This document shows, in pieces, positions 1,235-6,703 of a stretch of DNA of 24,585 nucleotides. The translations under genes were made by a program, and so were the position numbers. The DNA comes from a virus. Where the stretch lies: the IMG/VR virus record IMGVR_UViG_3300037189_012917, positions 1-24,585 of that record. One strand, 5' to 3'. Below the pieces are notes generated by a model. It was not told where the DNA came from. It searched no databases and saw only the letters and a program-made list of their open reading frames with translations. Each line of letters starts with the position of its first letter. The first letter of the stretch is position 1.

Positions 1235-1435
1235 ATGAACACACTACTCAAATCCTATGACGTCATGGTACGTCTCCCCATGACCGCCGCCGCGCGCAAT
1301 GCAGGCGCAACTGGCCGGACCCATTGGTGGGCCTATGCTGGCCGCATCAACGCTAGGTCTAAACGTCACGCCTGCGCATTGATGCGCAAGGGCGAGTGGG
1401 CTTATGCAGAAAAGCTCCGCGCATTTTCCCGCTAA
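1235..1435 (+). CDS. Small basic hypothetical protein
   Basis: A 66-residue basic protein starting MNTLLKSYDVMVRLPMTAAARNAGATGRTHWWAYAGRINARSKRHACALMRKGEWAYAEKL. No family is recognised. The Arg/Lys-rich central region could bind nucleic acid, but no defined fold is visible. The frame is open much further upstream (to 1034) because it overlaps the 954 gene out of frame. The ATG at 1235 is preferred because it follows the intergenic leader and the same ACAAAATG context recurs at 2173 and, slightly varied, at 1464. There is no Shine-Dalgarno; the leader is free of G. It lies in the plus-strand operon 33 nt after its upstream neighbour. Confidence 0.5.
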   Translation: MNTLLKSYDVMVRLPMTAAARNAGATGRTHWWAYAGRINARSKRHACALMRKGEWAYAEKLRAFSR

Positions 1436-1463
1436 CCTTCCCCACCCCCAACACCCACAAAAA

Positions 1464-2162
1464 ATGTACATCCTCCACGAATCCAGCGACTTAGTCTGCA
1501 TCGCGACTGTCGCATCCGATAACATCAAAACCGGCCCCATGATCCAGCTTTGGATCATGGCCCGCAACGTGCACCCCGTAGAGTCCCGCCGTACCGGTCA
1601 CGATGCTACTCTCCAGTGCCAAGGATGCCCTCATGCCTCTAATCAAGGCTGCTACGTTTCCCCTTTGGCTTTGATGGCGATTTATCGCACATATAAATCT
1701 AACGGGTACACCCATTTACATATGGGATCACCCGAATGGGCCGCATTCTTCGACGGCGCTTCCGTTCGGTTTGGCGCCTATGGCAATCCATCCATGATCC
1801 CTTTGGAAATGGTGTCGGATATCGTGGACCGTTGCTATTCTCACACTGGGTATATGCACGACTGGCACCTAATGCCGATAGACTTAGCTAAGGCATACGG
1901 GCGCTTTTTCATGGCAAGCACAGAGCCCAGCAATGTAGCCTATGCGCAAAACCTTGGCTTGCGGACTTTTACGGTCGTACCGGAAGCACCTGAAGATAAG
2001 CGCCTTGGGATTGAATGCCTTGCTGACAAAGCCGGAATCCAATGCATTGACTGTGGCCTCTGCGATGGCAATTCCCGTTCTGCTTCCCGGTCTCTCCCGC
2101 TCCCTTCCGTTTGGATCAAAGCACACGGATACCAAACCGAAAAAGCAATCGCGAACCTTTAA
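1464..2162 (+). CDS. Conserved Cys-rich phage protein of unknown function
   Basis: A 232-residue soluble protein and the largest of the plus-strand operon. Visible features are NIKTGPMIQLWIM near residues 20-32, a CX2C plus third Cys (C52, C55, C63), VRFGAYGNPS (about 101-110), HTGYMHDWH (about 127-135), GLRTFTVVPE (about 165-174), and a C-terminal CX8CX2CX2C cluster (C185, C194, C197, C200). I recognise this pattern from uncharacterised proteins of phages and other bacterial elements. The two Cys clusters suggest metal (Zn or Fe-S) binding, but no enzymatic activity is established. The frame is open from 1404; I choose the ATG at 1464 because the upstream codons lie in the previous gene and in the CA-rich leader. 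No Shine-Dalgarno is present. Confidence 0.75.
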   Translation: MYILHESSDLVCIATVASDNIKTGPMIQLWIMARNVHPVESRRTGHDATLQCQGCPHASNQGCYVSPLALMAIYRTYKSNGYTHLHMGSPEWAAFFDGASVRFGAYGNPSMIPLEMVSDIVDRCYSHTGYMHDWHLMPIDLAKAYGRFFMASTEPSNVAYAQNLGLRTFTVVPEAPEDKRLGIECLADKAGIQCIDCGLCDGNSRSASRSLPLPSVWIKAHGYQTEKAIANL

Positions 2163-2930: not shown

Positions 2931-3308
2931 ATGAGCACCTCGCACTACTCCCGCAGCTACACCGACCTCACCTCACCGTCCCGCACCGACGAGTACCCAG
3001 AGCCCTGGGCTGACCGCCGGCCGAGACCCTCGATCCAGCACTCCCGGCCGGAAGCCACTGACGTTGGTGCTGAGACAATCCGGTTGCCGTTGCCAGCCGA
3101 GCGGCCAAAGCCGGCACTCAAGACCACCTGGTTGTTCCTGACCGGCATCCTGCTGCTTGTGTCCGACGGCTGTGGCCTGGTGTACTTCTGTGACTCCTTT
3201 TGGGAGTCGGTAGTCTTCTGCATCCTGACGATGCCGACCTGCGGCTTTGTGCTGTGGTGCGCCTGGGAGATCTACTCGCTCAACGACAACGAGGACTGGA
3301 CGCACTAG
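2931..3308 (+). CDS. Small two-helix membrane protein
   Basis: A 125-residue protein starting MSTSHYSRSYTDLTSPSRTDEYPEPW. The first ~65 residues are polar, rich in Pro, Arg and Ser, and probably disordered. Two hydrophobic segments follow (about 68-84, TTWLFLTGILLLVSDGCGL, and about 93-112, VVFCILTMPTCGFVLWCAW), then an acidic tail SLNDNEDWTH. No family is recognised. The disordered cytoplasmic head with a helical hairpin could act at the host membrane. The frame is open from 2877, but the ATG at 2931 follows the repeat region and matches the CA-rich start context of other plus-strand genes; no Shine-Dalgarno is seen. It converges with the RusA gene, sharing a CTAG at the stops, with no terminator between them. 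Confidence 0.6.
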   Translation: MSTSHYSRSYTDLTSPSRTDEYPEPWADRRPRPSIQHSRPEATDVGAETIRLPLPAERPKPALKTTWLFLTGILLLVSDGCGLVYFCDSFWESVVFCILTMPTCGFVLWCAWEIYSLNDNEDWTH

Positions 3309-3892
3309 TCTTTCCACTCGGCTGCTGCTTTTTCCTCGATCGCGACAAACCGCAGTTTAATCCATTCTGGAGCGTTTTCGGCGGCGGATACCCCTGCGGA
3401 CGCGTCCAACCCCTCCCACGGGGCTCCTGAAGCGTCTACGGACACCTCGACGATGGCACCTTCACCTCCCGGCCGGCACCAGTACTTGCGGATCATACCG
3501 GTGGACACCCGGCAGTCGTCTCCGCCGAAGAGTCCCACCTTGGTGCACTCGTCCAAGATCAGCTTATCCAAGTTGTCCCGGTCGGGCTTCATCGTGTGCG
3601 GTTGACCCCAGCGGTCGCCAACCTTCGTCGGGAAGAAGAACGTCACGTCCACCCGGAGTGCTGTCGCCTTCGTCACCAACCCCACGGCAATCGCGCACAA
3701 TGCCTCGCTCGCAGCCCTTCGGACTGCTCCCTGCCACATCGATACCGCGGGCTTAATATTTGAGATTACGCGGTTCCCTACGAACCGCGGACGCGGCTGG
3801 CTCTTCGGTTCACCTCGCACCACCAGCCTCACCAGCACTTGGCCGGTGCCTGCACTGCATTCTGCACTAAGTGTTACCTGCTCTTTCTTCAT
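3305..3892 (-). CDS. rusA: RusA-family Holliday junction resolvase
   Basis: A 195-residue protein. The N-terminal half has VVRGEPKSQPRPRF (about 24-37), the substrate-contacting start of the RusA fold. The active-site segment KPDRDNLDKLILD (102-114) supplies the conserved aspartates D104 and D106, and D125/D126 (FGGDDCRV) follow, with K136 in RKYW. RusA enzymes are dimeric Mg-dependent endonucleases that resolve four-way DNA junctions. In phages they process recombination intermediates and branched DNA before packaging. The C-terminal ~50 residues extend beyond the usual ~120-residue core, are Ala/Glu-rich and of unknown role. The gene stands alone downstream of the hairpin region with its own promoter-like sequence and no Shine-Dalgarno. 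Its stop overlaps that of the convergent 2931 gene. Confidence 0.88.
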   Translation of the reverse strand: MKKEQVTLSAECSAGTGQVLVRLVVRGEPKSQPRPRFVGNRVISNIKPAVSMWQGAVRRAASEALCAIAVGLVTKATALRVDVTFFFPTKVGDRWGQPHTMKPDRDNLDKLILDECTKVGLFGGDDCRVSTGMIRKYWCRPGGEGAIVEVSVDASGAPWEGLDASAGVSAAENAPEWIKLRFVAIEEKAAAEWKD

Positions 3893-3897
3893 ACTTG

Positions 3898-3926
3898 ATA
3901 TTTAAGTGTACGTACTTTTTTGCAAA
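3898..3926 (-). promoter_or_regulatory. Candidate promoter of rusA (leaderless geometry)
   Basis: On the minus strand TTTGCA (3926-3921), a 17-nt spacer, then AAATAT (3903-3898), followed by only 5 nt to the ATG at 3892. A one-base shift (TTGCAA, 15-nt spacer, TAAATA) is equally plausible. The spacer holds TACGTACTTTT in plus orientation (3909-3919), repeated at 4164-4174. Confidence 0.4.
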
Positions 3927-3974
3927 CTTTGAGCACCGCCGCAACTTAAGGAAGTAAGCGAAGCATTCCACGGT

Positions 3975-4024
3975 CCTCGTACGGACACCTAGCGTAAGCG
4001 TTAAAGGTGTCCGAGTATACGAGG
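3975..4024. repeat. Long imperfect hairpin carrying GGACAC in its stem
   Basis: CCTCGTA (3975-3981), C, GGACACCT (3983-3990) pair with AGGTGTCC (4005-4012), G, a 4-nt bulge, and TACGAGG (4018-4024). This gives 16 paired bases with one bulge and a 14-nt loop. No U-tract follows on either strand, so it is not an ordinary terminator. Confidence 0.7.
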
Positions 4025-4039
4025 ATACGGGGAATTAGG

Positions 4040-4068
4040 GGACTATCCCTATTACCCTTATATAGTCC
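4040..4068. repeat. Inverted repeat GGACTAT/ATAGTCC
   Basis: A perfect 7-bp inverted repeat, GGACTAT (4040-4046) and ATAGTCC (4062-4068), separated by 15 nt. It is the second of three consecutive hairpins between the primase-helicase and rusA. Confidence 0.55.
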
Positions 4069-4136
4069 TCGTGTCCTCAAATGACGTAAAGCTACCATTT
4101 TCAACAACTTAACCCCGTCCTCGAGCACCCCCAAAA

Positions 4137-4192
4137 ACAGCAAAAAAGGACACGCGTTCATTCTACGTACTTTTGCGTGTCCTTTTTGCTGT
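4137..4192 (-). terminator. Intrinsic terminator of early/replication operon
   Basis: Stem ACAGC-A5/6-GGACACGC (4137-4155) pairs with GCGTGTCC-T5-GCTGT (4175-4192): 18 bp with one bulged A and a 19-nt loop. On the minus strand the hairpin is followed by TTTTTGG (4136-4130). It lies 25 nt after the primase-helicase stop and so should end the long early transcript. GGACAC hexamers form part of both arms. Confidence 0.82.
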
Positions 4193-4216
4193 CCCCTGAG
4201 GACACTGCTATGCCAT

Positions 4217-6703
4217 TTACTCTGTTGGCACAGCGTGTCCTCGTGTCCTAATTGTGTCCTCGGCATCGTCAGCGGCAGCCAATATGCTGCTTTTTCCCAT
4301 ACCCTCGGGGACACGGCTAAATTGCGCTTTCCATGCGTTACTTTTGGCGGCCAAAACCACCTCACCAGCGTCCGCGTCAAAGTAAAAATCCTCCCATTCC
4401 GGCACGTTGTTGTAGCTGCCTGCGGCCAACACAACCCCCGCCTCGTCCTGGGACAAGACCCCTCCCGGGATGTCCAGATACGTCTTCGACTTGCTGCCTC
4501 GGACGGCACACGGTACCAGTAGATTCTTTACCAATGCCTCCTCAACTAAGTTGCCAAACTCCCTCCAACCTACGCCCCGGAGTATCTGCGGCAGTTCATT
4601 CCGGCGCTTGTAGAGACCGTTGGCGGCATTCTTCCCACCCACAGCGTACGGATGCAGCGCACAGGCAGCCTGATGGATCGCGTACACCATCCACGCCACC
4701 CGCTCACTCACGTTCACGGCGGCATATGAGTCCTTCTCGGTGATGTCCTCGAGGAGGCCGATGCCGTTCCGAAGCAGCGTGCGCTCTCCCTGTACCAGAC
4801 CGTGGATGTTGGCCTTCACAACCCCAAACTTCCAGAGTGCGCCCCGCTTTGGAGTCATCCCCATCGCCTTCATGCGCCTCTCGTAATCGCTCGCATGAAA
4901 CATCCCAAAGTTAATTCGGAAGTAACTCGGGATCGCTGACGCGCCCCGGATAGCACTACGCAACTCTTCGAGTGACCTCAGCGGTTCATTGCTCTTACGG
5001 ATATGATGGTTTATCAGAAGCGCCGCCCCCAGCTCGCCGCACACTCTGTGGGCCTCACGCATCATCTCGGCAATGACCACGTTCGAGTTCTCGTCGCCGT
5101 GCGATACCGAATTCAATGTATCAATCGCCACCAGCACCGGAGGCTCCGGCAGTGCCTTCATCAGATCCAGCATCCGGCGCCACTTGTCGCTCGTCACAGT
5201 AGTCCCGGTCTTAAAGTCCCGCTCGGTGAGCGGGAACGCTCCGCCAATGTTGGTCATGGGCAGCACAATCAGCCTGTCCCCGGCGCGGTCTATCAGGCCA
5301 CCTTGATCAAGCTGCTTGATGCGGATGTGCATCTCGGTCTGCGAATCCTCACACAGTATCAGCACCGCGGTGCCGCCACCCTTGATCCTCTGCCCACACC
5401 AGTAGAAGTCTTTGGCCTCGCTCCAAGCCGCGACCTTGAGCGCCAGATCCGCCACTAAGAACGTCTTGCCGCTCCCACCCTCACCTACAAACAGATGCGG
5501 CTCACCCTTCAGTACCAGTCCCTCTACCAGTTCCTCATGCTGCGGCACCGGATCCGTGATCCAGCGGTGGGCACTCCAGGCCAAAAGACCGTTCTCCCCT
5601 ATCGGCAGAGCCTCAGAAACAGCCTGTGTCCCCGACTTTTTCTCTGTAAACGACCCCTTCGAGGACACGTCTTGGCGGCACAAAGCTTCCCACTCGGAGC
5701 GGACTCTGACCTCGGGCCACGCTGGTTTCATGTGGAGTGTGACCCAACCGCTTAAAGCCTCGAAAGCTTGCTCTTTCTCCATGTCCCCACGCCGCACACA
5801 GTGGATGTAGTGACCGGCAACACGATTAAACTCCCCGAAGCGGGTGACGACCTCGCCCCCGGCATGCACGTCCCGGGTCAACTCGACGGGCTCAAAGTCC
5901 TCGCCTGCGTTGGTCGTGTTCTCCCCAAAGAGTCCCCGAATCACGTTATTTCCGTCCCCAAGGGACATCACTGTTCTAACAGCCCACGGCGCCGGGTTCA
6001 CTTCCTTGACCTTGTCGGCAAAGTCCGTGTGCAGATAATCTCCCATGATTTCCCCACTCCACTCAAACCTGCACGGCTTCGCCGTCCCGCCCTTCCCGTG
6101 GACTGTGCCGGCGATCCGCACCGGTTGATGAGACCGCCCGAACGGATTAGACTTTACCCCGCGACCCAACATGAGATCCCCACCGGACTTCTCGGCTATC
6201 TCATGCCGCAGGTTGATCACACCCTCAATGTCAGCGGTGGGCTCAATCTTCCACCAGGCATGCCGCTTCGGTGTACCGGCCTCGGTAGTACCACCAGACT
6301 CCACCACCAAGTCCGGCACACCGATGTTCTCGGCCACCCAAGCAATCCGCTCGTCAGTGTTGCCACTGTCAAAGTCCGCTACCACGGTCGTAAACGCCAG
6401 TACATTGGTAGACGTTGCCTTTGGCGCCCGCAGGACACACGGCACGATGAACGAGGCCACGGCATGCTGTCCCCAGCGACGGCAGTGCTCCACGGCAGCG
6501 TTCACCCAGTTCACCTCGGTCGCCGGCTCAAAGAAGAACTCTTCCCGGAAGGTTCCTTCTTGGCTTGTGCCCTTCTCACCGATCCCACGCAAGCAGACAT
6601 ACCGCCCCGGCTCAAAGTCAAAGTTCCCGAATATAAAGGACAAGTGTTCACGCACCTGGCTCTCATCAAAGAAAGCCAAGTTTTCTGTTTTTTGTGTCAT
6701 CAT
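4217..6703 (-). CDS. Primase-helicase fusion replication protein
   Basis: An 828-residue protein. The N-terminal part resembles archaeo-eukaryotic-type/RepB-like primase domains: TVVADFDSG (D110, D112) as the metal-binding acidic pair, ESGG...KRHAWWKI (135-153), and a GR..QPVRIAGTVHGKGG segment (189-206). The C-terminal half is a RecA-fold replicative helicase of the RepA/AAA_25 type: Walker A GEGGSGKT (407-414), ILCEDS (449-454), Walker B VAIDTL with D528, and the sensor-like INHHIRK (564-570). Such proteins prime and unwind DNA at phage or plasmid origins in the cytoplasm. The start has a good AGAGGA Shine-Dalgarno, and ATG overlaps the stop of the Cas4-like gene (TAATG). It is the last gene of the early operon. 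The 3' end carries the GTGTCC copies. The primase assignment is less certain than the helicase assignment. Confidence 0.85.
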   Translation of the reverse strand: MMTQKTENLAFFDESQVREHLSFIFGNFDFEPGRYVCLRGIGEKGTSQEGTFREEFFFEPATEVNWVNAAVEHCRRWGQHAVASFIVPCVLRAPKATSTNVLAFTTVVADFDSGNTDERIAWVAENIGVPDLVVESGGTTEAGTPKRHAWWKIEPTADIEGVINLRHEIAEKSGGDLMLGRGVKSNPFGRSHQPVRIAGTVHGKGGTAKPCRFEWSGEIMGDYLHTDFADKVKEVNPAPWAVRTVMSLGDGNNVIRGLFGENTTNAGEDFEPVELTRDVHAGGEVVTRFGEFNRVAGHYIHCVRRGDMEKEQAFEALSGWVTLHMKPAWPEVRVRSEWEALCRQDVSSKGSFTEKKSGTQAVSEALPIGENGLLAWSAHRWITDPVPQHEELVEGLVLKGEPHLFVGEGGSGKTFLVADLALKVAAWSEAKDFYWCGQRIKGGGTAVLILCEDSQTEMHIRIKQLDQGGLIDRAGDRLIVLPMTNIGGAFPLTERDFKTGTTVTSDKWRRMLDLMKALPEPPVLVAIDTLNSVSHGDENSNVVIAEMMREAHRVCGELGAALLINHHIRKSNEPLRSLEELRSAIRGASAIPSYFRINFGMFHASDYERRMKAMGMTPKRGALWKFGVVKANIHGLVQGERTLLRNGIGLLEDITEKDSYAAVNVSERVAWMVYAIHQAACALHPYAVGGKNAANGLYKRRNELPQILRGVGWREFGNLVEEALVKNLLVPCAVRGSKSKTYLDIPGGVLSQDEAGVVLAAGSYNNVPEWEDFYFDADAGEVVLAAKSNAWKAQFSRVPEGMGKSSILAAADDAEDTIRTRGHAVPTE

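Follow-up and report, generated by a model that had tools for sequence, protein, structure and literature searches.

The window, i.e., the whole 24,585-base stretch of viral DNA (from IMG/VR) analyzed here, carries on its minus strand a gene for an 828-aa primase-helicase (positions 4217-6703). Beyond the 3' end of this gene, a noncoding stretch separates it from a gene for a RusA-like Holliday junction resolvase (3305-3892, minus strand). A primase domain of the archaeo-eukaryotic type occupies residues ca. 10-235 of the primase-helicase (5999-6676, minus strand), and the helicase half, in which AAA_25 was the only Pfam match, contains a hexameric-helicase domain similar to RSF1010 RepA (4988-5581, minus strand). 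A structural model of residues 1-360 (mean pLDDT 75.5) had as its nearest solved structures PrimPol of cyanophage S-2L (6zp9, Z 15.6) and RSF1010 RepB' (3h20/3h25, Z 12.4), including a structure bound to ssiA. Modeling of the full-length protein gave a poor result (mean pLDDT 44), with low confidence in the C-terminal part. The gp5 protein of a Wolbachia phage, annotated as RepA-like, is a relative; IncQ RepA was found by the helicase of a relative, with 29% identity. The match to IncQ RepA ends at about residue 282 of 391, leaving the last ca. 100 residues of the phage helicases as an extra part. Within the C-terminal part lies a segment (residues ca. 683-746; 4466-4657, minus strand) that we propose to be the reader of the repeats described below. 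Neither Pfam nor a profile search of PDB gave a match to this segment, and its winged-helix appearance, noticed by eye, was supported by neither search.

A Cluster of Repeats and Hairpins Follows the Primase-Helicase Gene

Between the primase-helicase and RusA genes lies an array of repeats and hairpins, our proposed replication origin (3964-4315, no strand assigned). A sequence-only reading of this DNA had counted ten copies of GTGTCC/GGACAC in 332 bp, and the count was confirmed: 10 of the 22 copies present in the window are located at 3983-4314, and 300 dinucleotide shuffles never gave more than 4 copies per 332-bp stretch (mean 1.8). The true repeat unit is longer than this hexamer and corresponds to the 9-mer GAGGACACG/CGTGTCCTC. 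With one mismatch or less allowed, 6-9 copies of the 9-mer per 400 bp were found at the array versus ca. 0.2 per kb elsewhere in five genomes (24.6-40 kb), and the array was the densest spot in each of these longer genomes, which excludes an equal density of the repeat elsewhere.

DNA of the array region is predicted to fold much better than shuffled sequences on both strands (z -7.6 and -10.1), and the same region folded as RNA gave z -7.5. Hairpins at 3974-4025, 4142-4187, and 4198-4242 proved to be real; a fourth, overlapping hairpin (4029-4057) and a conserved motif at 4098-4111 are added here. Starting from the RusA side, the array consists of a terminal hairpin (3974-4025) with outer arms TCCTCGTA/TACGAGGA, inner arms CGGACACCT/AGGTGTCCG, and a conserved loop with AGCGTAAGCG; a second hairpin (4029-4057; GGGGAATTAGGGG and CCCTATTACCC) in A+T-rich surroundings; an exact plus-strand repeat CGTGTCCTC (4070-4078); and an IHF-like site, TTTTCAACAACTTA (4098-4111, plus strand; reverse complement TAAGTTGTTGAAAA), of which this is the sole copy in the window. 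Further on, two hairpins are each made of two inverted repeats. The first (4142-4187) has repeats at 4146-4154 (minus strand) and 4176-4184 (plus strand) and is accompanied by a T-run, while the second (4198-4242), with repeats at 4198-4206 (minus strand) and 4234-4242 (plus strand), holds a conserved CAACAGAGTAA (minus strand) in its loop. Two more tandem repeats follow at 4242-4261 on the plus strand (4242-4250 and 4253-4261), and an outlying repeat with one mismatch (4307-4315, minus strand) lies within the coding end of the primase-helicase gene.

Two other elements were noticed outside the cluster. An extra exact GAGGACACG is present at 5661-5669, inside the primase-helicase gene and ca. 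1.4 kb from the array, and is found at the same place in the other array-bearing genomes searched; it may reflect coding conservation or be an outlying site. Upstream of the RusA gene and outside the repeats, GTGCTCAAAGTT (3925-3936, minus strand) is nearly invariant in 14 relatives and is possibly a promoter or a further part of the origin.

The Array Is Conserved among Close Relatives

The set of close relatives comprised 14 sequences, including the window, all of them viral contigs reaching past the end of the gene, with primase-helicases 65-91% identical to that of the window. The array is kept in 14 out of 14 sequences containing the primase-helicase and its downstream flank; its loss from close relatives that keep the gene is thus excluded. 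In most relatives the gene ends before the array (814-821 aa), and the 828-aa product of the window results from a one-base deletion and read-through. The earlier suggestion that the repeats constrain the C-terminal residues of the protein is not supported, since repeat copies are coding only through the run-on frame of the window and no coding constraint can be read from them when most relatives stop earlier. The hairpin at 4142-4187 had been taken for a terminator. The hairpin itself is conserved, but its T-run is not: the window, L004, L007, and L030 have GTGTCCTTTTT, the remaining sequences have GTGTCCTC, and a T-run accompanies the hairpin in only 4 of the 12 relatives having it. The conserved T-run expected of an intrinsic terminator is thus lacking. 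Given the presence of the array in all 14 sequences, the earlier gene stops, and the patchy T-run, we conclude that, as judged by sequence comparison, the array is a conserved noncoding element and is neither a product of coding constraint nor primarily a terminator.

Pairing in the hairpins is maintained. Five different inner stems of the terminal hairpin are found among the 14 sequences, each perfectly paired around the conserved loop, with G-U pairs never used, and the hairpin at 4029-4057 shows one compensatory pair change in L031. In a search of bacterial genomes no exact terminal hairpin was found, and the primase-helicase of the window had no match in a genome search.

Several side observations were also made. 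In L032 and L033, another hairpin, located ca. 170-190 bp into the array, contains a second, inverted copy of CAACAGAGTAAA, the loop motif of the hairpin at 4198-4242, as a duplicated and flipped unit. An ORF on the plus strand of the window (1404-2162, phrog_2554) runs against the main gene direction, and its relative in G002 (L016, 8839-9546) has the same opposite orientation. The first 20 bases of G002 (IMGVR_UViG_3300027733_000006, 36,986 bases) recur ca. 127 bases before its end, so that the genome of G002 is probably complete and bears a direct terminal repeat.

Arrays with Lineage-Specific Repeats Occur throughout the Helicase Family

About 100 related viruses and plasmids were compared overall. 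A search using aligned helicase halves yielded 80 loci, 79 of which could be scored for an array, taken as five or more occurrences of a single 7-mer per 350 bp. In 62 of the 79 loci an array lies no more than 1.5 kb downstream of the helicase gene, and in five more (67/79) it lies at 2-4 kb; among 1711 background tiles (380 bp each), 9 (0.5%) reached five copies. The displaced arrays retain the whole anatomy. No cluster was detectable in 12 of the 79 loci, among them L109 and L115, which are cut short by the contig end; the array of L079 is degenerate. Scans based on RusA or on L099 revealed no new loci.

The repeat is specific to each lineage, yet the different versions can be aligned as one degenerate word (CGTGTCCTC, CGTTCCCA, CATTTCC, CGTTGCCA, CTTCCCG, and ACTTCCGC). 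Rhizobium phage RHph_Y3_1, whose primase-helicase is 31% identical to that of the window, has an analogous array at the same place, with the repeat CGTTCCCA in hairpins, and this type of array was also found in sixteen further relatives of RHph_Y3_1. The most distant clades have mainly direct repeats that fold weakly, and we therefore consider the repeats, not the hairpins, to be the constant feature. Outside the survey set, an Agarilytica plasmid has a TTCCC array (together with lysine at the key position discussed below), an Azospirillum plasmid has six copies of ATCCCCG, and no array was seen in Wolbachia WO phages. In Bradyrhizobium plasmid p155_1 (L156), a relative of the helicase is broken, an IS66 element comes after it, and no array is left.

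A second shared element is the IHF-like site. Motif TAAGNNNTTGAAAA is common to the clade of the window and the Rhizobium clade, and all 14 of its occurrences in the 17 records searched are within arrays. TAAGNNNTTGA, read on the opposite strand, gives TCAANNNCTTA, in agreement with the core of the IHF consensus WATCAANNNNTTR (PMC10380432). For the motif WWTCAANNNNTTR, 54 copies were counted in arrays (18.4 kb in total) versus 32 in 482 kb outside (44-fold), and for the exact consensus 14 versus 11 (33-fold); many of the arrays come from related viruses, and these counts are not independent. At least one relaxed IHF-like site is present in 38 of 51 arrays, including arrays built of other repeats, and the copy in the window, TTTCAACAACTTA, differs at one position. 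Several plasmid origins are known to include IHF sites (PMC4980987).

The Array Goes with the Helicase, Not with the Primase

The N-terminal half of the protein in the Rhizobium clade is TOPRIM-like, Prim-Pol, RepB-like, or absent, and the array is unchanged. In the CATTTCC clade, arrays of the same type are accompanied by a RepB-like primase in L094, no primase in L095, and Prim-Pol in L096. As a side observation, close helicases with four kinds of N-terminal part are present among L048-L068 and L073-L101, which is an unusually frequent domain swap. From the comparison of these loci we conclude that the array goes with the helicase and not with the primase.

This pattern bears on the possibility that the hairpins are single-strand initiation sites recognized by the RepB'-like primase domain, as are ssiA and ssiB of RSF1010. 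Such a role would agree with the fold match to RepB', which includes the ssiA-bound structure, with the strength of the hairpins, and with the terminal hairpin staying paired through five different stems. Primase types vary under a constant array, with TOPRIM, Prim-Pol, RepB-type, or no primase at arrays of the Rhizobium and CATTTCC types, which speaks against reading by the primase as the common function of the hairpins; in addition, the GTG that follows ssiA is not conserved after the terminal hairpin. We regard hairpins read by the primase as an unlikely explanation.

The C-Terminal Segment of the Helicase Is the Likely Repeat Reader

Outside a block of substitutions located in the C-terminal segment, the helicases of L116 and of L101-L104 are near-identical. 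The array repeats are TTTCC in L116 versus TTCCC in L101-L104, while the terminal hairpin beyond them is unchanged. DNA identity between these loci is mostly 92-100% before the segment, 56-84% over the segment and the array, and back to 100% and 92% at the terminal hairpin, a profile that corresponds to one exchanged tract.

When 33 loci of the clade containing L116 and L101-L104 were compared, one of ca. 400 alignment columns, chosen after the fact by search, separated the repeat types, with lysine in 27 of 27 loci with TTCCC and arginine in 6 of 6 with TTTCC; the repeat labels rest on counts, with a tie in L079 and a near-tie in L098. On the tree, the residue and the repeat type each switch three times, and all switches coincide (sign test, p 0.25, not significant). 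The five best-separating columns are all within 20 residues of the C-terminal segment. The lysine/arginine rule fails in distant clades (L117 has arginine with GCTTCCC, and L124 has lysine with ATTTCCA), and holds at L077, L080, L089, and L091, all of them with arrays displaced by over 2 kb.

Such co-change could also arise if the repeats were read by another protein encoded nearby, with the helicase segment following them merely through physical linkage. The segment ends at the array, so that one recombination tract could span both. The same residue was, however, hit by three independent switches, and the rule also applies to arrays lying over 2 kb away; this agreement, and the fact that the best columns cluster in the segment, lower the probability of simple hitch-hiking, and we consider a reader encoded elsewhere to be improbable. 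The co-change, which comes from related clades (the repeat is invariant in the clade of the window), suggests that the helicase tail reads the repeats, each lineage having a matched pair of tail and repeat. The likely reader would be the C-terminal segment of the helicase, and not the primase. An extended version of this proposal, to which we give roughly even chances, is that in a wide range of phages and phage-like plasmids the array and the C-terminal segment together make up one exchangeable specificity cassette, in which a few residues of the segment, the lysine/arginine position foremost, set the repeat that is read, while the primase is swapped freely. If so, replication modules would be mutually compatible or incompatible according to a readable code.

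Replication Initiation as the Probable Function of the Array

The repeat cluster after the primase-helicase gene is, judging from the comparative evidence, very probably where the virus starts copying its DNA. We further consider it probable that the region serves as the replication origin by virtue of the RSF1010-RepA-like helicase, which would read the CGTGTCCTC repeats by its C-terminal segment and load there. According to this scheme, copies of the helicase (the C-terminal half of the 828-aa protein) would recognize CGTGTCCTC through the C-terminal segment, the IHF-like bending site at the center of the array would help to fold the DNA, the helicase would be loaded on strands opened near the A+T-rich, easily melted hairpins, and the attached primase domain would then make the first primers. 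Binding, melting, helicase loading, and the start of replication at the array are what we infer from the patterns described above.

An origin here had been proposed earlier from iterons lying beside an initiator gene. The comparison strongly supports this part, the array being conserved, unique in each genome, and matched in distant relatives by arrays of other repeats. It also modifies the proposal: hairpins are not universal, which makes the repeats the primary element, and these are likely read by the C-terminal segment of the helicase instead of the primase. A switch of GC skew, also looked for, was not found at the array; over most of the genome the sign of the skew does not change. It is weak evidence, because in these phages the skew follows the one-directional orientation of the genes.

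An alternative function would be that of an operator array, at which the helicase or another protein bound to the repeats controls transcription of the flanking genes, with hairpins acting as terminators or mRNA processing sites. The array does lie between two genes of the same strand, and one of its hairpins has T-runs on both sides. Yet the T-runs are not conserved, a promoter-like site was looked for and none was found, arrays displaced by 2-4 kb retain the whole anatomy, and an IHF-like site is present in the middle of the array. We therefore think a purely regulatory role quite unlikely, though origin and operator roles could coexist. A structured RNA element, riboswitch-like or a small RNA, would agree with strong RNA folding (z -7.5) and compensatory changes in the terminal hairpin, but is highly improbable given the lack of any Rfam match at curated thresholds (the best sub-threshold matches being microRNA models), the lack of G-U pairs in the inner stem of that hairpin, the presence of repeats on both strands in variable number, and the weak folding of the mainly direct repeats of distant relatives.

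To our knowledge, origins are not known for most environmental phages, and a literature search of limited coverage revealed no paper describing such origins for the RSF1010-RepA-like helicase family. If the array is the origin, origins of many phages with a helicase of this family could be read from sequence, as a lineage-specific array just after the helicase gene, and the specificity of the protein-DNA interaction could be tested by swapping a few residues. The results also suggest that primases are interchangeable parts of the replisome, while the helicase-origin pair is a stable unit.

Comparison with Known Replication Systems

SaPI Rep/ori is the closest working analogue, though the helicase family is different. 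Helicases of SaPI Rep and of Cch2 belong to the SF3-like or MCM-like AAA+ family, while the helicase considered here is of the AAA_25, RSF1010-RepA-like type, is often fused to a primase, and does not belong to the SaPI Rep family. In both cases short repeats are clustered directly beside the helicase gene, at a single place in the genome. As described in the literature, the C-terminal domain of SaPI Rep (Ubeda et al. 2007) and of Cch2 of SCCmec recognizes repeats downstream of its own gene (PMC7581432); a similar role of the C-terminal segment is proposed here from co-change. The arrays described here differ in having IHF-like sites and, in several clades, hairpins.

In RSF1010, iterons are read by a separate protein, RepC, and ssi hairpins by RepB' (PMC4234260, PMC4434180). 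The likeness to the IncQ oriV system lies in the RepA-like hexameric helicase and, in the clade of the window, in the RepB'-like primase. Here, in contrast, one polypeptide combines primase, helicase, and an extra C-terminal segment, which IncQ RepA lacks, and the primase is exchangeable, the RepB'-like primase of the window clade being replaced by others in relatives. Plasmid pRN1 has a stem-loop origin downstream of its primase-helicase gene orf904, and a C-terminal DNA-binding domain has been proposed to bind it (PMC4234260). The order of a primase-helicase gene and then a structured origin is the same, and a conserved stem-loop is found downstream here too; pRN1, however, has an SF3 helicase and no iterons, whereas an AAA_25 helicase, constant repeats, and variable hairpins are observed here. 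Finally, the combination of initiator repeats with an IHF site is shared with the iteron plasmid origins of pSC101, R6K, and P1 (PMC4980987). There the initiator recruits host DnaB, while in the system described here the reader of the repeats is apparently the helicase itself.
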